Below the pieces are notes generated by a model. The model was not told the DNA's origin. It was given only the letters and a program-made list of their open reading frames with translations, and did not search any database. From Antitrichia curtipendula (taxonomy: Eukaryota; Streptophyta; Bryopsida; Hypnales; Leucodontaceae): 64,000 nucleotides of DNA. Shown here piece after piece: positions 22,949 to 57,619 of the stretch; the stretch's first letter is position 1; each line of letters opens with the position of its first letter. The position numbers and the translations under genes are program-made. The stretch lies in NCBI GenBank assembly GCA_951230915.1, contig OX579635.1, forward strand, positions 22,568,001-22,632,000, read 5' to 3'.

Positions 22949-22952
22949 TTAA

Positions 22953-27662: not shown

Positions 27663-27904
27663 TTAAAACTTAAGATAAGTACAAATATACATTTTAGAGT
27701 AGCTTGTCTTGAAAAGTGCTGAGTAGTGGATTACCACCAATTTGATGAAATTGATGTTCAAAATACCATAACTCACAACTAAAGTCCTTTCTTTACAATT
27801 CTATTGAAATGTAAATGAGTGCAAAATGATGAACTAGTAGGCCAATCCAAAGGACATATAAAGTATATTGCAAAGAGAGAGGGGGAATATTTTTGGGGAA
27901 TGTT

Positions 27905-33475: not shown

Positions 33476-34107
33476 CTTAGAACTTAATTGCACTTATTCC
33501 TAGAACCTCCAAAAGTAAATAAAATAAAATAAAATAATTGTTTTAAATAATAAATACTTATAACTCCTTCCAAAAAATTTGTATCATTGATTCATGTAGA
33601 ACATTTTTTGCTTTCCATTGATATATTACACAAGTTTTTGAAGCTTTTTTAGTGCATATTAAGGGAATCAAGTGCACTTTCTAAAACATTCGTCATCCAC
33701 AAATCTAACAAATAGATTTCATAAGTATTAGCTCATGAGCATAAATTTACAATAGGATATAATTGCTACATGTTTATATAACTAACCTATTCAAACTCTT
33801 GCCTGAAATGCATAACATTTTCTTATGCGAGCATATAGTTTATTTTAAATTTTCTACACGAAGGTCAAAACCAACGTTAACTAATTAAATTTTTTCAAAA
33901 AAATATGACATGTCATCTTACAATTTGTTCAAGGTAATGTGGACCTCTTAAAATCTAGCGTAGAAATTTAATTTTGGCATTTAAAAAATTAAATACAACC
34001 TTCATGTACATTATATCTAACTATAGTACTTTTAAAATACATACTCTATTCATTTCATGTTGAAAAATACCTTGAAAAGACTCAACAAAAACTATATGTT
34101 AGTTCAA
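33476..34107. other. AT-rich intergenic DNA
   Basis: No gene or paired repeat is seen. Confidence 0.4.
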
Positions 34108-35017
34108 CCCCTAAAAGACCGTTTGTCCTCTCAAGAGACAATTTGGGTCCGGCCGTCCGGGCAGGTTCCTATAACCTCAAATTTTGTGAAATTTTGTGAA
34201 ATTTTTTGAGGATGTGAAGTTGTGCAAGAGCTTTGTGGATATACAATTTTTATTTCAATCGGTGCTCGGAAGAAAAAGTTATGGCAAAATAAACAAAATT
34301 GAAGTTTGGCGGGTAACACAAAAAAATCCTCAAAAGTCAAAATATAATTTTTAAGTTTTTTTTTCCTAAAATATTATATTTTTGTCTACATGTGAAGCTT
34401 TGATTCATTCTATTTAGACTAATAATGAGAAAATTATGGACAATCTTAGTTTTTTGGGCAATCTAAGCATTTTCTTGAAAAAATAACTTATAGAGCTCAT
34501 TTTTGAATGCAATTTTTTCAATTTTTTTGTTAGATAGGGTTTAGTTTGCAGGTTCAAACAATCTAACCATTGGGATTATTGTGTTTCAATTCCATCTTAA
34601 CAATATAGTGTTCCCTTCAATTTTGAACCTACTTTTACTTAACAATTTTTTAATGAGTGAAAATTAATTATTTTTTTTCTAACTTTTTTTCCTTAAATTC
34701 TCACCTCAACTATCCAACATAAAATATTAGGAAAACGTCATCTTCAGTGCAAAAAATTTAAATTAAGAAGTTAAAAAGCCAAAAAATGTAGTTGAAGAAG
34801 GTGCAGGGTTTTTTTTCTTCACTTTAAATGCAAATAATCTGCAATATATGTGGTCAAAGTTCCTAAAGTTTCTTCCATACATCTTATACTAGTCTAGTAT
34901 AAAATCCTATGCTTAGATTTGAAAAAAATAATAATTTCCAAAGTTTTTTTTTCTTTGCAATAGACATGACAATTTTGAGTGTCTTTTGATGTAAGAAATG
35001 CCTTGGTCCTTTAGGGG
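34108..35017. mobile_element. TTAA-bounded element of about 910 bp abutting the 21-kb transposon
   Basis: The left end is CCCCTAAAAGACCG after TCAA; the right end is GGTCCTTTAGGGG before TTAA (35018-35021). It is close in sequence to the element at 56566-57480, and shares end phrases (GGACAATTTGGGTC in one orientation or the other) with those at 40767-41346 and 46201-46783. The right TTAA overlaps the GTTA duplication of the 21-kb element, so the larger element inserted exactly at the boundary of this one. Confidence 0.7.
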
Positions 35018-35020
35018 TTA

Positions 35021-35049
35021 AACACGGAATTAGACATTCTTGCACTTGG
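35021..35049 (+). repeat. Left terminal inverted repeat of the 21-kb element
   Basis: It reads AACACGGAATTAGACATTC and ends TTGCACTTGG. The ten-base word TTGCACTTGG occurs again in direct orientation at 35061-35070, 21 bases further in, so the left tip has two direct copies of a probable transposase-binding word. Confidence 0.9.
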
Positions 35050-35328
35050 GGGGTGCGACATTGCACTTGGCTAGTACGGCATCTAAATTGGACAATCTCA
35101 AATGTTGAGGGGAGGAGGGATTACTGCAAACATCATTTTCTCTTAGTAGGAGAAATTGCTGGGTAAAAAGTTGTCAAACACTTCATTTTTTATAATTATT
35201 TCATAAAAACCTTTCACACTTTTCACTCCACACTACTTGTAAGACATATTACTCTACGCTTAACACTCAAGTACTTCTACATACCTACAACTACAAGGTC
35301 AAAGAACACTGCATAATATCATACTTCA

Positions 35329-38300
35329 CTAATACATATTCAAATTATTCTGCAGACGTTCGTCATCTAGGTTCTCCATCTGCATTGCCATGTATTTGAG
35401 AAGATGCGCTTTAGCCTCCGTTGGAATGATCACTGTCTCCTCTGTATGCACACCATACACTGTAATCTTGGAACCTATAACATGACCACTTATCCCTCGA
35501 CGAGGGACATCTGTCCATGAATGTATAGCGGCTTCCTTCTCGGTCCAGCCCAACATCTCTCCAGACGGTTCCCACGTTGACTTCATACAGTTCGTGTACC
35601 TCACTCGGTTACTACCTGTTTCATCATGTGCTCCAGGTCTCATAGTAGGCCAATACCATAGGACCTTCATCTTGGAGGCCCACGTCCCCTGATCGAATTC
35701 GAGCACCTTCCCTAAAAAAAAAGGTACTTCTCCTCTTACTTCCGCTAGTTCTACGGTGAGGGCTACGTACTGCCCTACAACAACGTCATTCTCTAGATTG
35801 AATGGAGGAAACGGATCTTCCTTTGCATCTTGTTGTACCTCTGGTACAACTACATTTCTTCTGCCTCGAATCCTCCCCCCAGTCACTCTTCGCGATGTTG
35901 CTTGTATAGGTCTATCTCTGCGGGGTCCGAAATACCCCCTCCTCTCCGGATTTGGCATTGTCGCCATAATCTTGTCAACGATTGCACTCTCCGTTGTATT
36001 TCTATCCTCATCAGCAACTGCACTTGGAATTGTACCTCCTTCCACGTCAGGAACAATTCCATCATCCCTGTTCTGGTTCAAAACATCGTTGGGCCAAAAT
36101 GGTAAATCACGGACGCCTTCCCTATTTCGTTGTGGAAATTCCTCCAAATACTCCTTGAACTGTTCTGTTTCGTCCACCACTTCCATGTTCCTGATTGGGT
36201 TGATGCCTCTGTCTATCATCTTCTTCTTGTATGCAATGAACTCGTCTAATGCTTTCAATTCCCTCTGATCAGCTGCAAACACCTCCGCAAAGTCCGGTTT
36301 CTCTGCTATGCTAGGTAGTGAGTTTAGACACAAATGTCCTCTCGCTGGGCTCCACTCATTTGTGCAAAAATGCTTGTGTTACACACGGATCAACCCACTC
36401 TCCATGTAAAACTTCATATGGTGTGGAAATGTAATGCCCGTTAATGATTCCCCTCCTCGTAGTAAATGAGGTGTGATAAATGCCTTCCAGTCACGAACGT
36501 GCTCAAGCTTGCGAGCACTCACAAAAGCCTCTGTGTATGACGTTCCCTTCTCCACCAGCTGCAACATCTCTGTCAAAGTGTCTATGTCTTTCCTCTTCAG
36601 TACGTTCGAAATCACACTGAACCTCTGATCGATGTCCTCATGTGTATGGCCCACTATCAAAAAACAAAGATGCACTTCCTTGAAAAAACCAAGCCCAACT
36701 AGTGCAGCACACATAGCAAACATGTAATCGTTCTTGTTCTCTCTCGTGGTGTTATCCGCTTGAATCCTCAATGTCAGTGGCAATGACCCCTTCCTTCGCT
36801 TCACGTCGCATATGACGTTCATCACCGATGTTACGACTTGATTGCTATCATGCTTGTGGTGAGCATCTATCCACACGTCTACATACAGGCCGATACTATG
36901 TACAAGTACACCACACAAATGAGTCTTTACAAACCGAGATTCGATGTTCTTCACGGTCTACCTCATCTTCGGTTTCATGGTCGTATTCTGATCCATACCG
37001 TCAATAATCAAACACATAAAAAAGTCCGGAGTGATCATCGCGGACCTCTTGAACAACCAATAATCTCGCCTCTCTTCTATTTGATATCAAATGTGTAGCA
37101 CATACAGCTCTTTTATCTTCACCTTTGCTACAGCATTTGTCGTGGATTCTATCCCACACTTATACTCCCAACAATGCTAACACTTTGAAAACCGAGAAAA
37201 AGGTGGAATTTGCACATGCAGAAATTCCTTCCGCCAAAGCCGATGAAACGAAGACATGGACAACTCCGACCCGTCCACTAGTTTCTTCACTTCTTCGTTC
37301 ACATACTAAAAAACATCCAACTTGGTGGTATTCATTGGCAACAGAATCAGCGGGAGAACCGCACTGTCTGTTTTCCTGCAAATCAATCGATGGGGCTGTT
37401 GACAACCGGCTTCGTTGAAAAAAACGTTGAGGCTCTCCCTAGCTGCAAACATTTTTGCACTTTTCTTGTGCTGACACCTGTTTCCATGAACGGCTGCCAC
37501 TCTGCCATATACAACATGTGCTGTCTTCAATTGTTTCAAACGCCTTTGAGAATAACCCAACGCCGCGGCGTAGCATGCATTGCACATAACCCTGCCATCT
37601 AGTTTTATTACCTACTTGTCTCTTGTTGGACCCTCCGTGCGCGTGTAAAAGGCATTAAGCATTTGCATTATCCAAGTAGCACGTGCTTCGTACTTCTGTC
37701 CCCAAGCCATATACCGTTGGTCCAATACATATTTCGCATCTACATCACGCAGGCAATTGCGTTTACATGCTCTCCTTTCTTTCGCACACATAACACTGTC
37801 CAGAGTAACTTTTTGACTCGCAGACTCTCCCCTCTCCCGTGGACTTCTCACTCGTGCCCTTCGATTTGCCATTGAATACCTCCTCCTTGGTGCAAGCTCT
37901 GGTAGTCCTTCTACTCTTGTGAAATCCGCAGTGCTACCTTCAGAGCCTTGCGTTATAGGAGAACTTCTTTCTTGTGTGCTTCTTCCACCTTGACTTGGTG
38001 GCGTGCATTCGGAAGTGCTTGGGTTCTCTTCTACGTCATGAAAATCAAACTGTGGTGCTGCAACAGGAGGAAAAGAGAAATTTTGCCCCTCCCTCGCATT
38101 TGTTGCCGTTTTTCTCACCTCGTAGGGACGTGAAGAACGAACTGAAGCACGACGCCATCGTATTATTTTATCTACACAATCTCCCATAGTCTTCCCTACC
38201 AACTCACCAACCCATTTTGTTTCATGTACAGCATGTGTGACACGAACCGCAATCTCAAAAGGAGGTAATTTCTCTTGGTGAAGTTCATCATCACATTCAA

Positions 38301-38532
38301 AATTTGTATCCACCACACCCACACCCACAACTCGACCTTCGTCTCCAAGAAGTTGAACTATGCCATTGCTAGTTTGGAATTCTCCATCTCCTGGTGCACG
38401 ATCTTCTTCTTCGAATAGTCTTCCTCGTACCACACGCGCCAATCTTTCCCCTACGCTCCTTCGCTCTGTAGCAACCACTGTTGTCGCTACCGCATTGAAT
38501 ATCACTGGGCTTCCAAATGCTTGTGCTGCCAT
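35329..38532 (-). pseudogene. DUF7869-type, probable DDE transposase gene with six in-frame stops
   Basis: From ATG 38532 to the terminal TAG at 35329-35331 one frame runs 1068 codons without a frameshift. Six internal stops break it: TAG 37612-37614, TAG 37306-37308, TAG 37177-37179, TGA 37087-37089, TAG 36958-36960 and TAA 36379-36381. The N-terminal third is variable, with CAKERRACKRNC near 37,780. Across the stops come a CNACYAAALG motif, LWRKEFLHVQI, IIDGMDQ (37,000), WIDAHHKHDSN, QADN (Asp at 36754) and GHTHEDID (36628-36651). From memory this order is that of proteins annotated DUF7869. The spacing Asp-82-Asp-39-Glu fits an RNase H-fold DDE transposase; that role is my inference. The C-terminal part (35329-36330) includes a WYWP/WEPSGE stretch I do not recognise. 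All six stops could come from single C-to-T changes. Confidence 0.8.
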
Positions 38533-40766
38533 TTCTCACCTTCTCAAGTAATATATAATAGTCATGTATTTGGTGTAGAGCTTTTGTAATTCAATGTCTT
38601 CGCAAACCACTATCCTCTCTGTATTTTCATTCACACAGTACACAATAAAAAAAGTGGTCCTCCATCCTTTTCGAAGAAAACTGAAATCCCCCCGACCATG
38701 GCTACTTTTCAAGCCCTCATAAATAACACTATATAAACAAATCCAATGTTTCTGTTCCTTTTTTCCCTTCATTTGCTTCAGTAAAGGTCTGCAGATATAC
38801 TTGTCCACCATATTCAAGCAAACATTGCATGCTCTTCATACAACTTCCACATAATGAATTTTTTGTCAACCTCACTATTCTAAATGTCCATTTTGTTTAA
38901 TTGCATAATGAATACACTCTACATTTAGAGGGTTACATTACCTTTTTTACTCTATCAATTACTAATGATGTTTTATAAGTGCACACTTTCTATACTAATA
39001 TAATTGTATTTTCAGCTACAGACAACGTACAAAATCTTTTGAATCCTTGTACATTGGCCACTACAATGTACACATTCAAACCACACCATCCCGTTACAAC
39101 TTCTGTTTTGTGCGTGCTAACATTGATAGCTTTAATAACATTCGTCATGCTCTCTTTTTTTCTAAAGATTTTCATGTGAAAGTTCTAACCACACAGTCTA
39201 CATATCTAAATTACTAATTCGTTCATGCCATATGCCAAGGTGCCAAAAAATTATATTCCTTTATTTTACATGCAAATATCTTGCAATCTACATGGTCAAT
39301 CAATTTGAAATTTCTTCTCCACATTCTTACACTAATCTAGTACAAGATCCTATGATAAAATATTCAAAAAAATTAATTAATTTTCTTTTGTACTCTTTGC
39401 TCTAGAGTCTAGACATGGCAGTTTTGAGTGGTTTTTGATTGGAAAATGGCCTCGGGACTTCAGCGGTTCAGTTCAAAAAATCACGTCAGAAATTTAGATT
39501 GCACAAGCCTATTCAAAATCCATTTTGTCCCCTGTAGGACCAACAATGCTACTTCAGGGGTTACCTAAAGTAAAATTCATACTCATCTTTAACAAAATTA
39601 TAAAGTGAAAGGTGAAATTTGATGAAAACAATATCTAAATTGCTAATATATTTGATATAAAAATTGGGAATTACAATCCCAATGCTAAAAATGTTTCCTT
39701 AAACAACATGTATTCTATGTTTTGTTTTTACTTGAAAATTTTCAAAATTTAGTTCAAAAAATGACTACATATGTTTTTTTCTACTTTCATTGCATACAAA
39801 ACAGAAATCCCCACAACTTTCAATGTCACCATTTAGAATTGATTCACATATTTTTATGTAGGTATCAATCTAAGCAATTATATAAAATTGATCAATCTTT
39901 TTAAGAACATACTCTTAGCCACGTAGTTGACATATAAATAAAAAGACCTTCTTGACTTTTGCAATATTTAATAAAATATTGTGAAACAAATTTTCACATA
40001 TGTAGCTCAGGATGATTAGCATCCATCCTAAAAATTTCATGCAAAAATTCTAAATTATGAAGTCAATGGAGTTTGCCCAATTTCTCAAAAAAACCAAAGT
40101 GGGTTCCTTAGTTTGTCCCTTCAAGGTTAAGGGGTTAAACAACAAGTTTTTTTTCTTACATCATGGCCTTCAAGGGCAAACCATGGACCTTGAAAGTTTT
40201 TTTAAGTTGGTCCTTGACTCTTCTATAAAGAAACCTAAACAACCTTTGTTAGCTAACAGCTAACAGGTCTATTTTAGAAAAATGTCAAATTATAACTATA
40301 TTAATGTCTTCTAATCTCCAAAAGATTCATCCACTTGACTATTTTTCATCCATTTCAAATACATTTTCATCTACATTATTACCTTCCAAATTATTTCAAC
40401 TACAATACAATATCATTGATTGCTATTCGACCTAAGGTAAGAAGATCTATTATTGTTTATTTAATTGATGTACATAGATGGAGTCAAAATCACAATTAAG
40501 TATTATTTATATTTAGTAGACAAATGAAAATCATTAAGAGTCAAATTCAAAATTTAAAAATTTAAAAAGATCTATATTTTTTGTGAATTGAAAAAACCAA
40601 CACTGTAGAAATCTCAAAGTCTTCACTAGGTGCATGTTCAAAGCACCTTCACTAAAAGCTTCTTACTTTACCACCATGAAGCACCATTTGAAAAGTAAGA
40701 ACCATTCAAAGCAAACAATTTAATATCATATTGGTCATACTTCAATAGACAACTCTTTTACTATAA
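38533..40766. other. AT-rich interior of the 21-kb element
   Basis: No gene is supported. A fragment of the TTAA-bounded family lies at about 39,240-39,490 (TACATGCAAATATCTTGCAA and TGGCAGTTTTGAGTGGTTTT). The DNA just above 38532 should hold the promoter of the DUF7869-type gene; the start context on the minus strand is GAGAAATGGCA. I could not identify a TATA box with confidence. Confidence 0.45.
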
Positions 40767-41346
40767 CCCCTAAAGTCCTGAGGGTGTTTTTTGCCTAAAA
40801 CCACTCAAAACTACCACTTCTGCTATATTCAATTAAGGAAACCAATTTTTTTTGTTTTTTGGAGAATTTAACCATAGGATCTTGTACTTAACTTGTCTGA
40901 GATCATGTATTAAAAATTTCATCAAATTTCACTGTACGGATTGGAAGATATTAGCATTCAAAGTTGAACTAAAAGTTTTTTTTCAAAAAGATGCTTAAAT
41001 TGCCCGAAAAACTAAGATTGTCCATAACTTTCTCATCCCTAGTCCAAATAGAATGAATCAAAGCTTCACGTATAGGTAAAAACATAATCTTTTAGGAAAA
41101 AAATTAAATTTTTTTTTTTATGACTTTCCGTAATTTTTGTTGGGCTGTCCAAGAAGCTTATTTCTTGCTCACTGTGCCATAACTTTTTCATCCGGCATCC
41201 GATTGAAACAAAAATTATATATTCACAAAGCTCTTGCAAAGCTACACAACTTCAAAAAAACTCAAAAAAATTCACTTCAAATTCAGACAATAGGAACCTA
41301 CCCGAACCCAAATTGTCCCCCAAGGGGACAAGCGGGACTTTACGGG
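40767..41346. mobile_element. TTAA-family element of about 580 bp inside the 21-kb transposon
   Basis: The left end is CCCCTAAAGTCCTG after ATAA. The right end is GGACTTTACGGGA before TAAT. Internal phrases such as CCCAAATTGTCCCCCAAGGGG match the copies at 34.1 and 56.6 kb. The TTAA flanks are damaged on both sides, so it is not a recent insertion. Confidence 0.6.
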
Positions 41347-42239
41347 ATAATCAAGGATATACCAAAAAATATATATACTTTACATTAAATTTTTTGTAAA
41401 GAAAGCCCTACACACACTATGTCCAACAATTTTTTTTTTTGAGCGATATTCTGTCCGAAAGTGATATATTTTTTTTATATAAAATTGGTGATATATTTTC
41501 CTACTTTTGTGGATGAAATTGTTGATTTGGTACATATTTTAAGAACAAAATTGTTCTTTGGAGGATGAATGTACACTCTTTAGGATGAATAGTTCTAATT
41601 TCATCTACACTTGACATGTTTCTTGACATTTTTATAGATGTAAGCAATTTAATCACTTCAATGGAAATTGCTTTTTGCATTGCCCAAAATAAATATAAAA
41701 ATAAGCACTACCTGGGCAAATGACCCAACCAAAGTTTGGAGAGAAGTGCTGGTTAGTTCATTGTTAGCCAAAGAAATTGGGAAAAAACCCGGTTGCAATT
41801 TCAAAACATTAGAATAAAACATGTGAAAAAATCTATAAAATTTCTATTCAAAGTTAAAAAAAAAAAAGGAAAAAACACCCAAACTAGTTACCGTACGTGA
41901 AGATTTGAATCATCAGTCAAGTGCTGAAATTGAATTTCCTTGCCAAATTCTCAAGGGACCATACCATGGCACCTCACAACAATTACAATCACAACATGAC
42001 ATGTGGCACTTTATATTATTTATTATTTTTCTAGAGATGACATAATTTATGCTGAATCTGACCTTCATGTAGAATACTTGAATTAAAAAGGAAATTAGCT
42101 ATTAAAACTCAAGAAATATCTAGAACGTTGAACCTGAAACTTCCAAGGCTGATATTCAGGCCAATTTCCGTTGAGATCGAAATCGAAGGACGGAGTACTA
42201 GACCCCAGTCATACCGTCCTAACTCCTGATACCATGATT
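41347..42239. other. AT-rich interior of the 21-kb element
   Basis: Long A and T runs are present and no coding frame or paired repeat is visible. Confidence 0.4.
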
Positions 42240-44432
42240 CAGACTATTTTTTTTTTTTTTCTTGTTTGTTTGTTTTGAAGAAATGGGGAGACCCCACTAC
42301 ATTCAAGTTGAAATTGAGACCAGGTTTAAAGTCCGAAATTTACACACGTCTCGAGCGAACAAAAGAGACGGAGCCTGACTCTTTAATGGCGCTTTTTCAA
42401 TTCAAATTAGGAACTAATTTGAAGTCGCCTGCATGTTCCGCACTTCCGCAGCATGGAAGACCAGGGAAGCGAGGGACAAATTAGAAAGCTTGGTTTAGCT
42501 TATTGATAGCAACCATTATTAGAAAGACGAAGGTTCGCCATGAGGAACCTCCCGGACGAAACTCCAGGAAAGTGCGCCATTTCGGAATCTGGCTGGGTTG
42601 GCGCTTTCTTGACAATACACAGATGCTTGCTCGTGTGTCCGCACTCGGCCCTGCAATTGTTTCTCGCCTTCTCCGTCCATCGATCTCAATAGGCTTCTCA
42701 AAAACTTGATTAACAACGGTGACACACTTCTCTTTACACTGAACGTACGTTCATGCGCAATCCTTGTCCGGAACTCGCCTCTGTGCCTCTTGCATCGTCG
42801 ACGTCATCAAGCACTTGTTTCTCAAGCGGTCTAGGAAACCAGGACAAGGAGCATCTGGAACTCTGACAGCATCTGGAATTTCTAAACTTCGTCGCCTCTT
42901 CGGTGATGTTCATTTCTTTCCTAATCGTTCGTTCATAGTTTGGTTCGATTCGGTGTTCTGCAGGAGACCCCCTCCACGCGCGGGGGGTCTCCTGGTGAAC
43001 ACTGTTCACTGTTCACTGTTATATGCTCCGTCGAGACTTCACTCATTCGCACAACTGACTATCTTTGCCCGTTCATGACTGCTCTAGCTTTAAAAGGCTA
43101 AGATCGGGACTCACCAGGTTTTGGTGGAGCACGTGATACAACGGATCTTCCAACGCCGTTCCCCCCATACGCCACGACCACCGTCTTCTCGAAACGCAGG
43201 TATGTCCTGTTCGCCAGTTGCTCTTCGCTCCAGCAACTGAATCGGCAATATCCCAAGAGTTTACTTGCATTCTGGTCAATCGCGGCAATTAGTCCCGCTT
43301 TAAATTTTCACCAGTCGACTAAGAATGTTGTGTTTTCCAAAGTTCATCAATTCTCTACCAAATGAGCTCAACGGAGAGCTTTCAGGTAAATACATAATTC
43401 AAATTGGTATTCATAGTTGAGGTTAGTTAACAGACCCACCTGAACAGAGTTAGATTGAGTAGACAAATTTCGACGCTTGGGCTTCCTCGTTTCCAGCTTT
43501 GTTCATGAAGTGCGAGCCGAGAAACACAAGTGCGCCAGAAATTTGGGATGCTAAGGTTTTCGATTCTTCTGGTTCTACTAGCTAGTTTGACCTTCTTGGC
43601 AATTCCTTGGATTTTGCAGGTTAGAATATTGATATTCGTTACCGAACCAAGTGAACTCTGTGACTTTCAACTTTTCAATTAGACGAAGATTATAAAAACT
43701 GTAAATTTTCACTACACTTTGTCTAGCAAACTGTAGGCATCTGAAACAGTGACACCCTCGAATTGCCACTTCCGGCGATCGATCAAGTGAAGGCAAACTG
43801 CGGGCATCTGAAACAGTGACAACCTCGTAAAAAAATTTTGAATTCGACGGCAGAGAAGAAGACCTTCAATTCGTAGGAAGCACGCTCAAGATTCCATTCG
43901 ACTAAGGATCCGCGATTTGCACTTGTCCTGCTGCACACACAATCACTTGTGAATTGGTGTTCCCTCGACCAATCGTGTGGCAGACCAAGTACAAGAATCC
44001 ACTTGATTGGGGAAGGTTCAATCGATTGTTAGATCGACATCCGGAAGATCGACAGTCCGGCAGTTGACATATTCTGACTACGGTAGTACGTGTCTTTTCT
44101 CTTCCCCAACCGGACAACAGTTCGACCATGATCTTCGATCCTGATAGGAAGAGACAAAATCTGGATTGACAACTCTAAGATTGATGAAATTATTGTCCCG
44201 AATTGCAATTTGCATCACACATCTTTACAATGAAGGAATTCACACGAATAAATCCAAGGTTGAACTCAGCTTCTTCTGACCTTCAATCATTCCTCTCACG
44301 CGACCATCGTCCCTGCAGCTGTTTCGGGAACTTGTGAATCTGTCGTGGACAAGTCATTGAACTGAACCTCGGTGACTGAAGACTGGAGCTACCCGTCGGC
44401 AGAGGAATTGGGCGATATTGGATCGCAGTAAG
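42240..44432. other. GC-rich central block of the 21-kb element, ending in a good splice donor
   Basis: This block lies between the two outward-facing genes and is far richer in CG-containing words than its surroundings. Open frames are short and on both strands, none with a known domain. It contains a 12-bp-stem hairpin (42961-42994) and a 66-bp-spaced direct repeat (near 43730 and 43796). It ends GATCGCAGTAAG followed by GTAAGTGG (44433 on), a strong plant 5' splice site. It may be a promoter and untranslated first exon of the right gene, whose coding part begins after the acceptor TATTTTCAG at 50340-50348. Confidence 0.45.
42961..42994. repeat. Perfect 12-bp inverted repeat with a 10-base loop
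   Basis: CAGGAGACCCCC and GGGGGTCTCCTG flank the loop TCCACGCGCG. The stem is GC-rich, so the hairpin would be very stable in RNA or single-stranded DNA. A small tandem GTTCACT repeat follows at about 43005-43020. Confidence 0.95.
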
Positions 44433-46200
44433 GTAAGTGGCTCTTAAACCGACCCTTTAAGGGCTGTTGGGTATTTTAGATGTGTTTTAGATGCTCAATA
44501 TTTTTTTCCCTTATGTTTTATTTGAAGAGAAATTTCATGCAAAATCTAACACAAGTGGTTTCATAATTTTTGGAGTATTTATGAATTACTTACAAATTTT
44601 CAAAGAATTCTGCAATAGGCAACTATTTGTGATCTTAGGTTTTTAACTCCAAAAGGTCCCTAGAACCCAAACATAGTGCTCCTTCGTCAAACTTAATTGT
44701 AATTTTTAAACTATCCATTTTTATTTTGATCTAAATTTAGGAAGTGAAGCCCACAACTAAAATTATGTCTTTACTCCATTTCAAAAATTTGAAGAAATCC
44801 AAACATTCAATGAGTTATTGCAATTGGAAGCTCCATGCATTAATCCTTGAAAGATGAAATGGTGACCATGTAAATCATTCCTTTATATATTGTGGCTTTA
44901 AAAAATGCAAAAGCACTCAATAGAATTCAAACTACTGTAGAGCACCTCCCCTTTTCATACAGAATTTTAAGGAATGAATAGTTGTACTTCTATCCTATAC
45001 AGAAAGATTCCTCATTCATCGGCTAAAAAACGGTTGTAGTGTTGCTTATGAGTTAAAATCCAAATAACACAATTATATTGTATGCATTTCTTTTATCTTT
45101 CTTTCTTTACAAATAAACTTCAATTTCAAAAAATCAAAAATATTATTTTTCATTCTAAACTTCATTTATGGTCAAATTTCCAAATTATTCCAATATATAT
45201 ATATATATATATATTCAAAGTCATATAATTTGACGGACATTTTACACTTTAAAAATCACAAATACTTTTATATTTTTCAAATCAAAAAAAAAAAAATCAA
45301 CTTCTGTAGAAAAAATGTTTATTCATATATGAAAGTTATCAAAATGTGTGGAAGAAATTTCACAAACTTTGATTACGTAGATTGCAAGATATTTCATATT
45401 TGTATTTAAATTCTGCAAACGAGTTATTTTACACCTTATTCAACTACATTTTTGGGCTATCAACTTTTGTAACTTATAATTTTTACTCTACTGATTTTGA
45501 ATTTTAAATTTTATATGATAAAGTTTTGAGTTGAGAGTTGTAGTATAGTTTTTACATAAATACGAAACCCACACACATGCAGTCTGAAAAAAGAAATGTC
45601 TTCACCCAAAACCAACACTGTGGCATGGAAAAAGTAGTACACAACGTTCCTGAATGTGACCCTTACTAAAATTAAACGTAGCCTACATTCTTTTAAAATT
45701 TTCGAAAATGCAATTGGATAATCAATTCTAATTTAGAAAAATTAAGTGAACACACAGTGACTTTAAAATGTATCATCTCTAGTTCGTAATCCATGCATTG
45801 GCAAAGTTTGAAGCAATAATTGACAAGTCTTAATTATGCTCACATTGATGACAGTCCATTTAATGTCCGTTTTAGAACCAGCACTTAATTTTTATTTTGG
45901 AACCACCTACATAACTGTTTCAAGAAGCGGATCGCTTTATGAACCACTTACAATAGAAGATTAGAAGACGGGACTGTGAAATGTGTAAGTTCATGAATTC
46001 AAGTTGTCAAGTGCACCCCATTTAAATTGAGTGAGAAATAAAAAGAGTGAAGGGGACTTCTCAAGCTAGGGGGACTTGATTCCAGTATTGCCTTTATTTT
46101 TACCCTTGCAAAACACATTGAAATTTCTTTGTACTCCACATTCGATGAAATTTTCAATTTTAAAATTCATATTTGCAATCAGAGGCTCCGAATTAGTGAA
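44433..46200. other. AT-rich interior with dispersed repeat and AT microsatellite
   Basis: Positions 44,830-45,010 match the dispersed repeat at 28,560-28,800. An (AT)n run lies at about 45,197-45,216. No gene is supported. The stretch may be the start of a long intron of the right-hand gene. Confidence 0.45.
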
Positions 46201-46783
46201 CCCCTTAAACCCCGGTTATCCCTTCGGGGGACAACTTGGATCTGGTTAGGTTTTCAACTTCCTATTGTCTCAATTTGAAGTGAATTTTTTTTAAATTTTT
46301 AGAAGTTAGGGAGCTTTGCAAGAGATTTTTGGATATATAATTTTTGTTTCCATCGGATGGTGGATGAAAAAGTTATTGCACAATGAGCAAGAAATGAAGA
46401 TTGACGAGCAGTCAAAAATAAATAAATAATTATTTTTATCAAATTTTTTTTCTAAAAAATTATATCTTTACCTACACCTGGAACTTTGATTAATTTTATT
46501 TGGATTAGGAATAAAAAACAAAATTATGGACAATCTTAGTGTTTCGAGCAATTGAAGCATTTTTTTGGGAAAAAAACTTTTGTTGAACTTTAAATGCTAA
46601 TTTCTTCCAATCCGTTCGTTGAATTTTGATTAAATTTTTCTATTACATAATCTCTGACAAGTGAAGTACAAGATAATACGGTTGAAAATCCAAGAAACAA
46701 AAGAATTGGTTTTCTTAAGTTAATATAACAAAAGTGGTAGTTCTGAGTGGTTTTGGCAAAAAACACCTTCGGGGTTTTAGGGA
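46201..46783. mobile_element. TTAA-family element of 583 bp inside the 21-kb transposon
   Basis: The left end is CCCCTTAAACCCCGG, the right end GGGGTTTTAGGGA before TTAA (46784-46787). The inside resembles the copy at 40767-41346 in the opposite orientation (for example TGGTTTTGGCAAAAAACACC near the right end). Confidence 0.65.
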
Positions 46784-49001
46784 TTAAGAGACATGAAGAA
46801 ATACAGAATTGGAGTCACTAAATAGGGGGCAGTTGTTACATTTATCCTTCCGATGGGGCAATGCACAAGGCAGTCCTCCCTGGCTGATTTCTCGGGCTTT
46901 GACATCTTTGCATTAATTGTCCAAAAGAATATGTTTACCATGTCACGGTCCTGTATTGATTGTAAGAACACTTGAAATAAAAGAAAACGAACTTGGAGAG
47001 TCAAAATAGTGAACCTGTGGAACTAGGACTTCACAATCTGTTGCAGAATGCCAAAATCAGCAAATTTCTGAATTGACATGCAAGTTTGTTGTACTTGTCG
47101 TTTGTGTTCAAAACGAGTACAATATGGTCAATAGATATAGATGAGGACAATGGGAGGAAGTTGTCATTTGTTATTGAAAAGAATTATATTGGGTTGACAG
47201 ATTGAGTGGTTTTATTGAAAAGCAACATTGACATGAACCTGAATATTAATGTAGGCAAGTACATTGTTTTTAATTACGTGTTCTCTATTACTTAAAAATT
47301 AAAATTTACAATTACTAAACCATATGAGAGGTGGTTGAAATGATTGCCTGAAGGCTAGTGTGTCTAACTCGCTATTTTAAATTGCTTCACTCTTTTATGA
47401 TGCTAGTGAAGTTTTTTTCACTTAGTGCTCAGTAGTGCAATCTTAGAGTTGTATCAATGTTGTCAGAGCTTTCCTTGAATTGTTTGTAAATTGAAGGTTG
47501 TTATGTTATATGAAGTTAATTCAGTGCTTAAGAGAATTTGAAACCTTCATATTTGAAGTCTATATCCTGAAAGAAAATGAATGGTGGAGTTTTTGATTGT
47601 GCATCTTGGTATAGCAAATATTTCAAGAAGACTGATGGTTGTGAAACGCAACAATCAACAATGAAGGCTGCATAGTCACGCATGTTACATAGTTGCCTTT
47701 AGAATCAAGAGCAGCAAGAACATCTGCTTGAGGTATTGTTTTCACCTTTAAAAAAAAAAATTTAATTCATAGAAGTCTGTATTTAATCACGCTACTTTCT
47801 TTCCCATTCTTTAGAGGTTGTTATGTATTCTTTTCATTCATGGAAACTGTATGTGGAAGATATGAATTTCTTCCAATACAAAAAAATTTGTGATTACTTA
47901 TGAAGAATTTTTTAAATCCAATGAATTTCAAGTTGAAGATGTAGTAAAAGTCACTATAGAACTTATAACTAAAAAGTAAAAAATGTTAAATCCATTCACT
48001 GCATACAATGTATGCAGGACTCTTTAAGGTTTGAGTTCATGGCCTTTAGTATTTTAAGGTTTTGTTATACCCAATTCTGATAGCTTGTGTCATTAGATAG
48101 CGCATGAATTGAAAGTAAATAAGCGAAGACTTTATGATTTCTGAACTTGTAAAATTAAGATTTGGTAATATTATGGAAAAATACAATTTATGAATAATTT
48201 TGTCGTGGTAGTAAGGTGAGATGTATTTATCCATTCCATGTTGTCTCATCTGCTTTACTTATAGATCAATATTTTTTGGAAGCCGTAATGATGATCGTTC
48301 TAGAGAAATGCCACTGATAACTAAGAATTATAGTTTGTAGAGTAAAGAGTTTATTAACATCTTAAATTTTTCTTCAGAAACCCCCAACAAGAACCAAGAT
48401 AAACAAAACTTCCGCAATCATTCAGAATTTGTTGTAGTGATATATATGTATTTTTGAGGTTCTCTTTTAGAACAAAGCTTAGAGCCAATGTTTTATACAA
48501 ATGAAATGTATGATTGTTTCTTGGAAACGGTTCACCTCAGCTATTGTGTATTCGAAATGCACAAAAAAATAAGATAGGAAAGATTGAATAACTGTTCAAT
48601 ATTTTTGAAGGAGTAATTCAGGAAGATGTTGAAGTTCGAATTGATAAGTGCATTCTAAAAATAATACAGAGGTTTAATTTTCTATTACAAAATTTGAATG
48701 AGTAGATATTGAATAACAGCTACAAGTTATCTAATTATACAACCTATGATGAATTTGTCTATCAGTAGTTCAAGAAGTATTCCATTACAACTGCAATACA
48801 TATTTGAAGGTTCTGAACTCTGAAGCGTGAGTTCTTGAAATTGAAATTTTTTTGAATTATTTATTTTTTGCTTTGCATTAAATTTATTTTGCTTTTCTTT
48901 CATGGCCGTTGTTATTGTGTAAGTGGTTTTTCAATTCGTTTTGCTGTTGGAGCATTGGATACAAATATGTTACGTATATTCTAGTTACATTGAAGTTGGA
49001 T
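46784..49001. other. AT-rich interior of the 21-kb element
   Basis: No gene is supported; a short minus open frame (46777-47004) has no domain. It may be intronic to the right-hand gene. Confidence 0.4.
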
Positions 49002-49585
49002 CCCGGGGAGATCACTTAGAGGATCCTTTAGGAACTACGTGTGTTAAGATTTTAGACCCCCTATCTTATGTTCTAAAATTTAAATAAAAAAAAAAAAAAA
49101 AAATATGAGTAGATTTTAATACTTTGAAAGTTTATGTTTTGAATTATTGATAATTTTATTTGTTAATTATAATTAGTTACTAATTTTTGAAATAAAAAGA
49201 TACAATGCAAAGCTGAAAATAACTTTCACACCCCTATTTTATATAAGAAAAAATTGTATAAAAAATACACCAAAAATTCTCAAAAAGAAATCTCTATTGA
49301 AAGTTTCTATTCCTTTAATATTGATGCAATGGTCATCTAAATGCATTCTCTGTAAATATTTGAGTTGAAAATCATGCCATTTTAGTTCATTTTTCAACGT
49401 TCTCTAGAAATCATTTAGCATGGTATTTGAATTGGGAATTTTGGGCAATAGAAACCTATAGCCTGTATTAAACAATACTCAAAATTATAGGTCAAAATCA
49501 AAGTTCATTAAAAAGTAAATATGGGGGCAAAAAATCACCTGAACACACGTGGTTAGTTATAGATACACTAAGTAATCTCCCCGAG
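49002..49585. mobile_element. hAT-like MITE copy A, 584 bp, 8-bp duplication AGTTGGAT
   Basis: The ends are CCCGGGGAGATCACTTAG on the left and CTAAGTAATCTCCCCGAG on the right. AGTTGGAT flanks both sides (48994-49001, 49586-49593). The inside is AT-rich and non-coding, with a long A-run near 49,085. It is the same family as the copy at 54251-54814, in the opposite orientation. An 8-bp duplication is typical of hAT elements; the family assignment is inferred from that. Confidence 0.9.
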
Positions 49586-50354
49586 AGTTGGATTCTTGTT
49601 GTTCGTTTTCATTTAGAAATTTATAGTGGAAGTGATGTCCATCATATACATATACAATTTGTTGAGCTACTATCAACAGAAGAGAGATTGAAAGCTAATA
49701 GAAATAAGTCTTTTATGTAGTTTTATTAAACTCAAGCACATTGTTACAGAGGAAACATAACAGTATCTGAAAATACTCATTTCAATAAGGTAAATGAGTT
49801 TCAAATTGGGAGTTTAGGAACTGAGTGGAAGACTACAATTGTTTTGTAAGTTAACTTTTACTTCCAAGTGTGTAAGTGATTTTACTTTATTTGATAGACT
49901 AAGGAACAGCATATAAAGGTAATCATAAAATCATACATGTAATGTTCTATTGAGAAGATATATATAGGATTTTCACATGCCCATCATAGTGAGTTTTTTG
50001 GGATTGAAAGTGTAGTGCATTTGTTAGAGCGATTGTGGTATTCATTGTCGTGCATAGAACAAGTGTTGCCGGAAAATAATTGGGTTTGAATTCCGAAATT
50101 GGTTTGTTTTTGGAATTCAGTTTTTGAACTTCATTGGTCAATTCGGTCCTCTATGTAATTACATTTAGTAACATGGAGAGAATATTCATTTGTCTTATTC
50201 AATGAATTTTTCAAAATTGACGATAACAGCAGTGTGTTCTTCAAATCTGATACAATTTGAATTATAAATTTTTAATGTACTATAATGTGTTTAAAAACTT
50301 TTGAGAACGTCAATGAATGCTAAAGTATTGTTGAACTTTTATTTTCAGGGCATC
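49586..50354. other. AT-rich DNA before the ParB/methyltransferase-like gene
   Basis: No gene is seen. The last bases before the coding part, TGAACTTTTATTTTCAG at 50332-50348, look like a 3' splice site. Confidence 0.5.
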
Positions 50355-53300
50355 ATGGCACCGAAGATGCACTTGAAGTGGTTGGAGCACGGATGGTGGA
50401 TCGTAGTAAACGACAATGACAGGTTTTTTTTATGGATAACAGATTTTTCAATTGGGCAGGGGCGTTATGAGTCTGCATTGGCATCCTCACATGGAGTCAT
50501 CGAGGGCCTCACGGGCACCGCTGACGGAGGACTGACTGTGTCGGTGACCACAACAGAAACGGCACTTGAGAAGTATAAATTGCAGAAGATATTGATGATG
50601 GCTCCGGTTCCGCCACAACTCCTCTTAGTTCTCACTCCGATGCGTAGCTTGAAGAGTGGCAAATGATTGGAAGAAAGTGCCTCATGAATTGTAGGTTAAA
50701 CGAGAGAGAGCGGTTCAAAAATTCATGGGGATGACCTCTGAACAAGTGCGAGCATTGCGTCATCGATACCGGGAGATTCTGAGCCGTGAAGAATTAGAAA
50801 GGGTGAACGCAGGTGTCGTCCAAGAGCGGTCTGCACCAAGAGATCTAGAAGACTTGAATGAAGTATATTGGGATCTTGCTACGCCAGTGAATCCGAATTG
50901 GATTCCACCGGATGAATGGAACCGCAAGCGAGCTGCTGTTGAAAGGGGATTAGGAATGCATGCAAATGAGGGGATTCATCCTAGTACACCGAGGGCACAG
51001 CGTCAACGCCTCCAATCTGCAGCAACAGATGTTGTTGTTCAACCTACAAGTGATATTGAAGAGGTACAAGTGCAAGCGAGCGCAGCATTGAGGCCACCAG
51101 TAGTGGAGATGGAAGTTGCAGAAGAGTTGTTGCAATCGAGGGAGGAGGGAACTCAAAATCCTGTACCAAGCGAACTCCCGGTTTTTCCTGAGCTTCCAAG
51201 TGACGGAGAAGAGCGAGCTCCAACCACAACCACGAAAGTTGGATCAGGATCAAGATCAAGACAACCAAGAGTTGGCTCAGGTGCAAGAGTTTACAGGTCA
51301 CATGTTGTAGTGGCCAACGTAGATGCTGCAAGGATTGCCAATCGTGTAGGACGGAGTGTTGTTAGGGGACGCGGTGCTGGTGTAGGACGTAGTGCTGGTA
51401 GAGGACATGGTGGGGGTGAGATGCAACATGATTCTCCAGTGCAAAACATCTCAGAAGACCAAGCAGGGCATCAGATTTGTGCAACAAATGTTGGAGAAGA
51501 GCAAGGTGCTAGGAAGCGAACAGCAGCACAAGTACGTCGTCAAAGAGCAGCCTTACAAAGTCGTCCTCCACAAGGAAATGATGGCGAAAATGCTGTCATT
51601 GATGATGATTCCTCTGAAGGTGAACCAGAACAAGAGCGTAGAAGAGTATTGCCGAAGAGCATTACAAAAACTCATGTTGTTTTTCCTACTGAGACCGAGT
51701 ACAGAGCAAAATATATATGGGGACAGAGTCTAATTTTTGATGCGAGGATCGATAGCATCCGCGATGTGGTTAACGCAGAGACGAACCACAAGGTGCTAAT
51801 GGATTAGCGTGTGAATGAAATGTACGAGCGCCTCAAGGGATCCGAAGCTGATGGAGTAAGTGCAATTACACTTCGTCCCATTGCATATCGCTATGACAAT
51901 AGGAATGACGAGAGAGAGATGGAGGTGACGGATGTACCGTTTAGCCAAGAAGGGGCTGCACGTGAATTTGAAGCCGTGTATTTGAAACATTGCCAAGCGG
52001 ATTCATTGCTCTCGAGCACCGCATTGCAGAGGAGGTGGCTGGAGAGCAATATTGTGTGGGAGCCAATAGATGGCCAACATATTGTTGGTGCTTGTAAACG
52101 AGCTGAACGGGAGAAGGAAGAGGGACATTTATCCAATGAAGAGTATCATGCGCAGTTTGTGAGCCGGAAAGCAAAGTTTGTGGTGTACAACAACCCGCAG
52201 TTTTATATAGAAGCGTCGGTCAAAATAAATGCAAAGGAGTTTGACAGGAAATTCTTCAGCACGCATTACAAAAATCTCATCAAACTGCGCGACATATGGA
52301 AAGCGTGTGGAAGTCCAAGTGTGGCTACTCGGGCTGACGATGCATACAGAGCAAAAGCGTTGACAATGGCAACGAGTGCATTACATTTAAGTCAAAGCTT
52401 ATCAAAGCATGTATCGTTGGGGGAGTTGTCGAGGAAGATGGTGGACTATACACGCCATGCTTGGCATGAAGACGAGGAGTCCTATAAGGCTATCTTGCGG
52501 GTGTGCAAAGATTATGAGGACGGAAAACTATTTTTCAGCAAGAAGGCAGAAATGAAATGGAAGAAGATGGCTAGAGATCAGAATCTTGATGTCACAGTGG
52601 ATGGAAACCCAGAGCAGAAGAGGATGGAGAAGACCTGGTAGAGGCCGTTGAACAGCGTCTCTACGGAGAACTATGTACGTGTGGTGAAAGAAATGTCTGC
52701 AAAGGATGTGGTGAATGGAAAGCGTCCTTTGCAACGATACTATTTCAATGATGCTGCTTCTGCAAACCCCTGCAAAGGTACAATAGCGTATGCCGTGGAC
52801 AGAGTACAGCGGAAAGATGCCATCAGAAATCAAATTTGGTTTCTTATGGTAGAAGCAAGGGATGAAAATCCATCGTCCATGGATGATTTCTTCTCCATCA
52901 ACGCAAGCAAGTATGGAGATTCGGAAGGAAGGCAGTTCCTCTTGATGGGGAGGACATTGGATAATGACACAAAGACCTCGTGGTATTTTCCTGCAGTGAC
53001 GACGGTTCAAATGCTGAGCAGTTTGGAGAGTGTCGTCCCAGTTTTTGTCAGACAACACTTTGTGGATATCCGAGCGGGTCACAGAGGTTATGCGGGATAT
53101 GGTCGAGACGTCGAGGATGTATCCAATGCACGTTGGAATTGACAGGTTGCAATCTCCGTAGTGCAACACGAAGAGCAAGAAGCCTCATTTCACGTGAGAT
53201 GTAGGGGAGGGTTCTTTGAGGACGAGTACATTGAACTTGGCAAACCATGTTTATGGATTTTTGATTGTAGATGTGGAGGTTCGCAAGGGACGGACATACC

Positions 53301-53825
53301 ATGGTCGAACAAGGATTACAACAAGGTTATGCAGCAACTCAAGAACTGGATGTCTTGCATTTTTCGTTGGAATGCCGTATTTTTGTTTCCGCCCGGCGTA
53401 TCTTTTGACGAAGCGATGGAGTCGAGGATGGCGTTGCCAGAGGGCTGCCACGTGCTCCAAGGTTCTTGGATATTTCAAGCAGAAACCGTGTCCTCGTACG
53501 TGAATGATCTGCGTTATGGCGTGCAACAACATCATGGTGTACAACTTGTTGGTGGCATTGTCATCATCATGAATTATCCCAAAGAGAGTGGGTTCATGGA
53601 AAACCTTCCTAGCGGTACAGATGACTTACATGTTATATTTCAAGACTCTTGGAGTACAGAAGTGATGCCTCGAGCACAAGACAAGTTTGAGAGGACACCA
53701 ACGGAGTTGAAGAGATTGGTACAAATGTATTTGCTACGGAATTGGGGGTTGGTAACATTAGGCATCACAATGGCAGTGCCAGGGATTTTGGAGACAAGAT
53801 ATGTGGGCAATGATGTTATATGGCC

Positions 53826-54065
53826 AAATTCGTTAAAATGAGACAGAATGGTCATTTTGAGACTTCAATCTTAAAACCATTTTAGTGATTTTATCCTCGA
53901 GTCGAAGATAAAATACGAGTGCAACCTTTGGGCAATCAAAGGTTTTTATATATACTAACATATGAAAGTCTCAAATTACCAAATAGTCTCAAAATTAAAT
54001 AGTTATAACGATTTATCTTCGAGTCGAAGATAAAATTGAGACTACACTTTGTCTCATTTTAATGA
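53826..54065. mobile_element. 240-bp foldback MITE, duplication ATATGGCC, in the ParB/methyltransferase-like gene
   Basis: ATATGGCC flanks it (53818-53825, 54066-54073). The arms share TTAAAATGAGACA in inverse orientation. Two nearly perfect 23-bp palindromes of the form TTTATCTTCGAGTCGAAGATAA lie inside (about 53889-53911 and 54009-54031). Removing the element and one duplication joins GATGTTATATGGCC to TTTTATCATT in one open frame. The terminal bases are not exactly complementary (AAATTCG against TCA), so the precise ends carry an uncertainty of a few bases. Confidence 0.85.
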
Positions 54066-54250
54066 ATATGGCCTTTTATCATTATAGAAGGTGTCTCGTT
54101 GAAAACGCAATTCGTGTACAACAAATTGCAATCGATGTATGGGGATAAGTTGGTGATGGTGAACAGTGTGAGTATGGCCGCCGAACGCAGATCCTCACAG
54201 GGGTTGACTAGAGAAGAGAGGTTTCCTAGTCCTGGTGTTTCTGAAACAGA

Positions 54251-54814
54251 CTCGGGGAGGTCACTTAGCTCTACTACAACAAACCACGTACGAACAAGTG
54301 GTTTCTAATAAACTATAATTTCAACCTAAAATTTTGAGCATTGTTTAATAATGACTATAGGTTTCTATTGCCAAATTTTCCAACTCAAATAAAATATGAA
54401 ATGATTTCTAGAAGAGGTTAAAAATGGGCTAAAATGGCATGTTTTTCAACTCAAATAATTATAGAGAACACATTTAGATGACCATTGAATCAATATTCAA
54501 CTCAAAATGAGCTTTCAATAGAGAGTTATTTTTCAGAATTTTTTGTTTATTTTTTAGACAATTTTTTCTTATATAATATAGGGGTGTGAAAGTTATTTTT
54601 CAGTTCTACAGTGTATCTTTTTACTTCAAAAATTTGTAACTAATTATCATTAACAAATAAAAATATCAATAATTCAAAACATAAACTTTCAAAGTAGAAA
54701 AATCTATTCATATTTTTTTAATTTTGTTTTATTTAAAATTCAAAAAGTAAATAGGGGGTGCAAAGTTTTGATCGCACGTGGTTTTTAATGGACACTCTAA
54801 GTGACCTCCCCGAG
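54251..54814. mobile_element. hAT-like MITE copy B, 564 bp, 8-bp duplication GAAACAGA
   Basis: The ends are CTCGGGGAGGTCACTTAG and CTAAGTGACCTCCCCGAG, an exact 18-bp inverted repeat. GAAACAGA flanks both sides (54243-54250, 54815-54822). The inside is inverted relative to copy A and shares phrases such as TATAGGGGTGTGAAAGTTAT. Removing it and one duplication continues the host frame from VSETD into GGVPPGRVE. Confidence 0.95.
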
Positions 54815-55581
54815 GAAACAGATGGAGGTGTGCCACCTGGTAGAGTTGAAAGAATACCGCGGTCATCTAGGGACTCCTCCAATGAGGAAGGGAGAGATCA
54901 AGTGAACAGACGGGGACAGCGCAAGGGGAAAGCTAAAGCAGTTGATTTGGGAGCCTCATCGACGAACGAAGATGAGAGTGATGCCGAGCGGACATAGTCT
55001 GACAGATTACCAAGTGTTGGCCAAAGTTTAGGTTCTCGTGACACTGATGCAGTCAGTGACGCCCATGGGGATCAAGCAAATTTGATGGAAGTAGAGCAAG
55101 ACCCGGGTTTTGTTGTTCCAGAAATAGTTGAGGAGGTGGACAACGTGGAACCGGAACAAGTTGAAGAGGGCGTGGAAGAAAATGCAGATACAACAGCACG
55201 AACGGAGTCCATGTCAGCGTTGTAACATTCAGCCAATTGGATCAAATGAGCTTTGTCCCAAATAGTGAAGGATATTATCGTAATAGGGACAACGTTCAAT
55301 TCACTCGGACAGGTGAAGGATCAAATTACATTTATCACCGAGTGACTTCCATCTTGGAAGGACCTTCTCTGACGCCAACATTATCAGAAGGAGTAACAAC
55401 GCCTGTTGCAAGCGCCATGGTGGATACGGCGTTGCAGTTTATCTCTTCGCCTCCAATGAGTCCAATCCATGGACCAAGTACACACGATCAAGCGGAGGCA
55501 ACTGGTGGAGGAGAAAGAGGAGACTTAGTGCAATCATCTGCACGAATATTGAAGACACCGGATGAAGCAGGGCCGTTATAA

Positions 55582-56073
55582 GAGACATAGTAGTATGTTT
55601 GATGGTAGAATACGGTGTGTGAGAGTATAGACCTTGTATGCTAGTTTTGAAAGATTATGAAGATGTTTGAATAATTGTATGGTTTTTGATTGGTGTGAGC
55701 ACATAATTAAAAAATGTGAAGGTAGTTGCTAAATCTTCAATGTCATTCTGGATTTATAAATAAATATTCCAAAAATTGTAGTGAATACTGTTGTACACAT
55801 GGTATACGCATATAAATATTATAACATGAATGTAATTGCAAAGTACCGAGCATGAAGATTAATACATGAGACCGAACCAAATGATTGATAGGAAGAAATA
55901 TTATGTGTTGGACTCGTATTTCTCTTGGAAGAAGGAAATTGCATACTCATAGAGAGTTTGCGTTCATAAAGATAGTATTGCATGATGAAATAAAAAAATT
56001 GATTTCTTGAAAATCTGGGGGGTACTCAAGTTTTTGATAATACGTTTTTTGTGAATATTTTTTCATACGATCA
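55582..56073. other. 3' flank of the ParB/methyltransferase-like gene inside the right tip
   Basis: It is AT-rich and non-coding, and ends in the palindromic tip. It should hold the 3' UTR and polyadenylation site; AATAAA-like words occur (for example ATAAATAAATATTCC near 55,757) but which one is used cannot be told. Confidence 0.5.
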
Positions 56074-56093
56074 TTGCACTTGGCCAAGTGCAA
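56074..56093. repeat. Perfect 20-bp palindrome at the right tip
   Basis: TTGCACTTGGCCAAGTGCAA is exactly self-complementary. It is formed by the inner end of the right terminal repeat and a second inverted copy of the same ten-base word. The left tip has the two words in direct, not inverted, order. Confidence 0.95.
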
Positions 56094-56112
56094 GAATGTC
56101 TAATTCTGTGTT
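56084..56112 (-). repeat. Right terminal inverted repeat of the 21-kb element
   Basis: Read on the minus strand it begins AACACAGAATTAGACATTC and ends TTGCACTTGG, differing from the left end at one base. GTTA follows at 56113-56116. Confidence 0.9.
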
Positions 56113-56565
56113 GTTAAAGGGTTAGTATTATCTTTGTGAACAACAATATAAACAAAATGAAACAAACAACAATACTAAGCATATTCTAGAATTTATAAAA
56201 TTGGCACTCTTTGTACATACTGCTATACAAACTAAGCTTTATTAAATGCTTAGGATTTTATCAAAAAAAAAATAGCAATATTTGGTATGCCATTTCTGGA
56301 ATCCACAATTTGAACTGTAAAAATGCCATCTAAGACAAATACAAATTAATTTTTAGAAATTTTAGACTTATGCAGATTTCAAAAATCTAAGATTAGTATA
56401 GATTTCAGACCACACAATTTGAATTGTAAGAGTTCCATCTTGGACAGTTGTAGATTTCAGACATTTAAAAAAGTATAGATTTCAAACATCTAGGACAGAT
56501 GTACATTTCAAACCGCTTGGTCTAAATCATGAAAATTGCCAAAGTTGCAAAATGGTGCCATTTTA
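56113..56565. other. Right flank of the 21-kb element
   Basis: It starts with the GTTA duplication. Repeated phrases such as AGATTTCAGAC and TAGATTTCAAACATCTAGGAC form a loose direct repeat at 56,360-56,510. No gene is seen. Confidence 0.5.
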
Positions 56566-57480
56566 CCCCCTAAAGCCACGAGGCCTTTTCTCCATCAAAA
56601 CACACTCGAAACTGCCACTTCTATTACAAAGAGCAAAAAACCATAAAAATTGGGGTTTTTTGCATATCTAACCGTAGGATCTTATACTAGACTAGTATGA
56701 GAATATGTGCACGAAATTTCAGAAATTTTGACCAAATATATTGCAAGATATTTGCATTCAAAGTGAAAAAAACAAGTTTTTTTGCACCTTGCTTGACTAG
56801 ATTTTTGGGCTTTGAACCTATTTAACTTAAATTTTTTGTATTGTTGATTTTGATTTTCTAAGTTTATATGTTGAATACTTCAGTTGAGAATCTAGGAAAA
56901 AAATTTCAAGAAAAAAACACTAAATTTTTACTCATTAAAAAATTGTTAAGTAGAAGTAGGTTCAAGATTGAAGGAATAACTAAATCATTAATAGCTCTAA
57001 GACAAAATTAAAATACCATAATCCCAATGGTGAGATTGTTCTAGCAAGCAAATTCAACCTTGTCTAACAATTTTTTTCTGAAATTGTAAAAATTGCATTC
57101 AAAAATGAATCCTAAAAGTTATTTTTTCAAGAAGATGCTTAGATTGCCCAAAAAACTAAGGTTGTCCATAACTTTTTCATTATTAGTCCAAATAGAATGA
57201 ATCAAAGCTTCAAATGTAGACAAAAAGACATAGGTTTTAAAAAAATTATTTAAGAAATTTATTTTGACTTTTTGTGATTTTTTTGTGCTGCCCGCCACAC
57301 TCTATTTTTGGCATAACTATTTTTCTCGGGCACCAATTGAAATAAAAGTTATATATCCACAAAGCTCTCGCAGAACTGCACAACTTCAAAAAATCCAAAA
57401 AAAATTCTCTACAAATTGAGGTTATAGGAACCTACCCAGACCCAAATTGTCCCTCGAGGGGACAAACGGGGCTTTAGGGG
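56566..57480. mobile_element. TTAA-bounded element of about 915 bp
   Basis: The left end is CCCCCTAAAGCCACG after TTTA, the right end CGGGGCTTTAGGGG before TTAA (57481-57484). It is the inverted sister of the element at 34108-35017 (shared GGTACCTACCCAGACCC-like and TCTAACCGTAGGATCTTATA phrases). It has no coding capacity. Confidence 0.7.
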
Positions 57481-57619
57481 TTAATGAAGTTCCCCCATCA
57501 GTGTATTCAAATGACTAGAATTCAAATCCAATGAATATAATACAACCAGATTACAAACGCTATAACTAAGACCAGATACATGAAAGAGCAGGGAAATTGA
57601 TCAAACACCGACATGATCA

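Follow-up and report, generated by a model that had tools for sequence, protein, structure and literature searches.

A decayed giant DNA transposon with two genes, probably Sola-like, in the moss Antitrichia curtipendula

What kind of element occupies positions 35021-56112 of the 64,000-nucleotide window analyzed here (GenBank assembly GCA_951230915.1, contig OX579635.1) from the moss Antitrichia curtipendula, and do the two genes inside it belong together? An initial annotation proposed a single autonomous-type DNA transposon of 21.1 kb pairing a DUF7869-type gene (gene A) with a ParB/methyltransferase-like gene (gene B) that might bind or modify the DNA of the element itself. We consider it likely that the stretch is a degraded member of a multi-copy family of giant DNA transposons with two genes, probably of the Sola class, that would move by a cut-and-paste mechanism.

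Ends of the element and its copies in the genome

As initially described, the element ends in 29-bp terminal inverted repeats that are identical at 28 of 29 positions, with GTTA directly before the left tip and directly after the right tip (Table 1). No other occurrence of the tip sequence with three or fewer mismatches exists in the window, and two matches were obtained in none of 100 shuffles. A comparable inverted pair was also absent from 50 order-2 shuffles of positions 33001-58000, a test in which low-complexity pairs were excluded from the shuffled counts only; the region also contains other inverted pairs, formed by copies of short repeats. The two genes face outward and end 308 and 531 bp from the tips, within the roughly 550 bp given in the annotation. 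The final bases of a short element of 0.9 kb overlap the left GTTA, and an inverted copy of this short element lies beyond the right tip (34106-35022 versus 57482-56562, 77%); the giant element was therefore inserted at the edge of another repeat.

The 400,189,583-base assembly containing the window was searched with the first 201 bases of the left end and with the gene B protein. The left end had 150 candidates and 40 scored matches, one of which is the window itself. For gene B, 44 of 285 candidates were scored and yielded 50 matches, most of them with at least one stop and few stop-free. Gene B follows 29 of the 40 left ends (window included) on the same strand at a distance of at most 40 kb, with a spacing of 11.0-18.3 kb in 25 cases and 30.9-33.7 kb in four; on the opposite strand it follows none of them within that distance. 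For the other 11 left ends no gene B was scored on the same strand within 40 kb. Gene A was found behind the tip in all eight of the best left ends inspected, four of which were without a scored gene B. The genome contains a multi-copy family of at least 29 related two-gene elements, as expected if both genes travel in a single mobile element; stand-alone short elements bounded by the same tips may exist beside them.

Besides the window there are 28 paired copies, and the anatomy of 20 was examined, leaving out the four wide-spaced copies and four more. Both genes were present in all 20, with gene A at the same place each time and frame changes there too in nine. Both tips were identified in 19 copies, 17,559-21,647 bp apart, a range inside the 10-25 kb that the annotation had named for further copies. 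It had also named duplications of 4-5 bp, and the target-site duplication was exactly 4 bp in 14 copies, 3 bp in two and missing in three, the remaining copy having no right tip; none was longer than 4 bp. The 14 exact duplications represent 13 different sequences that are somewhat AT-rich and share no fixed target. Across 21 copies the mean pairwise identity was 97% at the left tip and 93% at the right tip, and about 28-30% just outside. When flanks were compared with the window no case spanning an empty site was observed; the genome itself was not searched for such sites.

One diverged copy has a gene B that is 66% identical and a gene A that is 78% identical, with a nearly unchanged left tip and a right end that is alike to about 15 bases from the tip, where no tip was found. 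Since the gene pair is also present in this copy, the pair seems to be older than the main family. It is one of three copies of a diverged subfamily (gene B 66-67%), all on contig G000:C2 near 29.44, 31.23, and 46.08 Mb.

Gene A, gene B, and their decay

Gene A is a DUF7869-type gene as claimed, with a strong match to that domain (E 5.7e-51). A Pfam scan of P0005 and P0006 with E-values up to 10 returned DUF7869 and one sub-threshold ToxB_N, and no KDZ transposase domain. Among 7996 candidates scored there were 35 relatives of gene A at 25-74% identity, of which seven, from Riccia sorocarpa, are named for DUF7869. Three relatives (P0007, P0019, and P0022) are on ENA contigs of 673, 279, and 409 kb, possibly of other bryophytes. 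Pattern-seeded scans of IMG/VR and of GTDB species genomes confirmed no relatives. Gene A, a likely transposase, has a predicted fold that may be DDE-transposase-like; a Foldseek search with this fold returned nothing at E <= 0.001, its best matches by E-value, above that value, being Argonaute PIWI domains. DUF7869 is named in no paper of the literature searched, from whose coverage most subscription journals are absent. The association of a domain of unknown function with a mobile element having defined tips and duplications points to a likely transposase role for that domain.

Gene B extends from about 50355 to 55581 on the plus strand and its core is a single frame with three in-frame stops. 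By eye, its 3' end looks like the C-terminal ends of P0002 and P0041-P0044, although tblastn gave no match there. A first search identified three relatives and a profile search 12 rows including those three, and the eight relatives listed from other sequence sets are 27-47% identical to the window copy. The motif DGQH is invariant in all 13 proteins of the family, the methylase motif (D/N/S)PP(Y/F/W) is present in none of them, and the conserved stretch taken for its counterpart reads DCR in 12. No credible match to the family was obtained in Pfam, PHROGs, NCBIfam, or PDB sequences, only isolated weak ones. The strongest of these were to PHROG 35330, whose function is unknown (E 0.0018, one member), and to Pfam Beta_helix_2 (E 0.002, one member, below cut-off); the relative P0004 also matched the CxC3 model named for KDZ elements (E 0.12, below cut-off). 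Compared with nine phage ParB-domain proteins, the gene B profile gave probabilities below 1%, which is weak negative evidence because the alignments are shallow. Phage and plasmid sequences searched by tblastn with one of the gene B relatives yielded no confirmed relative, and a fold predicted from four sequences was a poor model (predicted local distance difference test score, pLDDT, 34). The ParB/methyltransferase-like label of the initial annotation goes back to a motif only, and with neither a ParB profile match nor a methylase motif its methyltransferase part is unsupported, as is the suggestion that the second gene modifies DNA.

Both genes probably served the element and were kept for their proteins while the family spread, as judged from the substitution patterns. 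In gene A (21 copies, compared in 210 pairs) the ratio of nonsynonymous to synonymous divergence (dN/dS) between copies is 0.28, with a median dS of 0.154; in gene B (seven copies, 21 pairs) the corresponding values are 0.32 and 0.210. Differences in gene A are about twice as frequent at third codon positions as at first or second ones. One comparison weakens this argument for selection: over the first 300 non-coding bases the median divergence is only 0.052, about the same as the dN of gene A (0.043). We read this low divergence as constraint on an end that is predicted to be bound by the transposase; the alternative is that silent sites mutate fast. The copies have since decayed, with in-frame stops in gene A of all 21 copies (one to six each) and in gene B of five of seven (one to three each). 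In-frame TAG codons are not explained by their being read as an amino acid, as the residues aligned to them vary by place. The window copy, with six stops in gene A and three in gene B, is a relic. The term autonomous-type may once have applied to the family; it does not describe the window copy, which is broken, and each of the 21 gene A copies has at least one stop.

Table 1. Features of the element, in window coordinates
Feature	Position	Strand	Basis or remark
Target-site duplication, left copy GTTA	35017..35020		Overlaps end of neighboring short repeated element
Left 29-bp terminal inverted repeat	35021..35049	+	Tip match; 21-copy identity profile
Gene A, likely transposase	35329..38532	-	One 1067-codon frame, 6 in-frame stops; 35 relatives; in 20/20 other copies
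DUF7869 domain of gene A	36364..36939	-	Predicted strand/helix order as in DDE transposase core
Middle of element, no gene recognized	38533..50354		Nested short elements, e.g., 40764-41346, 46202-46786, ~48998-49590
Gene B, 5' part and core	50355..53841	+	Frame change near 50660, 3 in-frame stops
DGQH motif in gene B	52069-52080	+	Motif comparison
DCR motif in gene B	53263-53271	+	Motif comparison
Short hairpin-like insertion interrupting gene B	53842..54060		Limits approximate
Short inverted-repeat element inserted in gene B	54251..54814		564 bp, flanked by 8-bp GAAACAGA
Gene B, likely 3' part	54815..55581	+	Frame changes; recognized by eye only
Right 29-bp terminal inverted repeat	56084..56112	-	Tip match; 21-copy identity profile
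Target-site duplication, right copy GTTA	56113..56116		Seen beside right tip

Kinship, mechanism, and competing explanations

The nearest published match found was Sola1-1_Ec32 of the brown alga Ectocarpus, a 21.5-kb element with an opposite-strand ParB/methyltransferase gene of 1104 amino acids (PMC12477816, Genome Biol 2025); this and the other published accounts are cited here from excerpts of the papers. It provides a precedent where the initial annotation had known of no named plant superfamily with this gene pair. The two systems share a giant size, a transposase, and an opposite-strand accessory gene; the size range of our family (17.6-21.6 kb) and the placement of gene B agree with the Ectocarpus-type Sola1. 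The algal accessory protein has a ParB-like domain, to which the DGQH motif of gene B may correspond. They differ in the brown-algal host and in that gene B has neither the methylase motif nor a ParB profile match, a comparison made by description. Similar proteins are cited for transposons of green and red algae, and the giant algal families have nested insertions and broken transposases (PMC12477816). Sola elements as a superfamily make 4-bp duplications, have tips of 11-1124 bp and a DDD transposase, in some cases exceed 15 kb, and include a moss host (PMC10741241); Sola1 is known from Physcomitrella (PMC9033089). The 4-bp duplications of the window and of 14 of 20 other copies, and the 29-bp tips, fall within this description, whereas most Sola elements are 2-9 kb (PMC10741241), well below our family, and the likeness is again one of description and not of sequence. 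A land-plant report of such a gene pair was not found in the literature searched. With the Antitrichia family, the giant two-gene plan published for a brown alga extends to a land plant, in at least 29 copies.

KDZ elements of fungi can carry TET/JBP genes and leave 8-bp duplications. They resemble the moss element in being large DDE elements with a second gene and differ in that the Pfam scan of gene A yields DUF7869 but nothing of KDZ type, and in their 8-bp duplications versus the 4 bp found here. KolobokP elements also combine a DDD/E transposase with a conserved second protein, but they have a TTAA target, long terminal direct repeats, and a His-Me nuclease as the second protein (PMC9587614).

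What was observed are the tips with their 4-bp duplications, many copies that hold the two genes between one pair of tips, a dN below dS, and the decay of the window copy; the steps that follow are inferred. The product of gene A would be a DDE/D transposase: it would bind at the 29-bp tips, excise the element and insert it at a new site, where a 4-bp stagger would yield the 4-bp duplications. The gene B protein would bind the DNA of the element via its ParB-like (DGQH) domain and assist transposition or maintenance, and its C-terminal part may derive from a methylase that has lost its catalytic motif. A copy such as that in the window would be mobile only if another copy supplied an intact transposase.

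The most serious competitor to the Sola reading is that DUF7869 transposases define an unnamed superfamily of their own, to which this giant cut-and-paste transposon would belong. The seven Riccia proteins named for DUF7869, the absence of this domain from the literature searched and a Sola comparison made by description rather than sequence would suit such a superfamily. We nevertheless regard it as unlikely, as the 4-bp duplications, the tip length of 29 bp and the size of more than 15 kb agree with what is published for Sola, moss included (PMC10741241), and as an equally large Sola1 element with a ParB-type gene on the opposite strand has been described (PMC12477816). For gene B, an active ParB-methyltransferase marking the DNA of the element, as suggested for the algal proteins (PMC12477816), could be reconciled with DGQH in 13 of 13 proteins and with a strand/helix order in the last third that could be Rossmann-like, in a poor model. 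The methylase motif in none of the 13 proteins, DCR at its presumed counterpart in 12, and the lack of methylase profile matches make this improbable. Gene B is conserved yet without a methylase motif, and the idea of self-modification can therefore be tested in this moss element, the expected alternative being a role in binding only.

That gene B might be a fragment of a host gene, carried along without function for the element, is brought to mind by the many genes of unclear role in giant elements (PMC12477816). It is a very improbable origin considering the dN/dS of 0.32 between copies, subject to the caveat of the low non-coding divergence, and the eight listed relatives in other sequence sets. 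Least credible of all is that the locus combines two independent elements, with gene B from another transposon having landed inside a DUF7869 element. In the window, nested short elements do lie beside and within gene B, but the consistent strand and spacing of gene B behind 29 of 40 left ends (25 at 11.0-18.3 kb and none on the opposite strand) and the occurrence of both genes in the copy whose gene B is 34% diverged leave hardly any room for it. The pairing of ends and genes likewise led us to reject a separate element of its own for gene B. It is possible, and we suggest it tentatively, that the element represents a lineage of giant transposons specific to land plants, whose accessory gene, the ParB-methylase gene of algal Sola elements, lost its methylase site and became a dedicated second transposition protein, under purifying selection beside the DUF7869 transposase, and that DUF7869 marks a bryophyte-wide transposase family.

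Nested repeats and neighborhood

A short repeated element of about 0.6-0.9 kb ending in CCCCTAAAG is present at 34104-35017, 40764-41346, 46202-46786, and 56562-57482, with TTA or TAA adjoining some of its ends. A second element, of 0.56 kb, has two inverted copies (48998-49590 and 54251-54814), of which the one inside gene B ends in CTCGGGGAG and has the 8-bp repeat GAAACAGA on both sides. In the middle of the giant element the G+C content is raised to 0.44 at 42000-44000, where no gene was recognized. Another dispersed repeat family occurs at 22228-22954, 25666-26250, 26775-27668, and 57618-58433, with about 70-78% identity between copies. Further upstream, at 4203-9640, the window contains a plant immune-receptor-like gene with TIR, NB-ARC, and leucine-rich-repeat stretches in several open frames.
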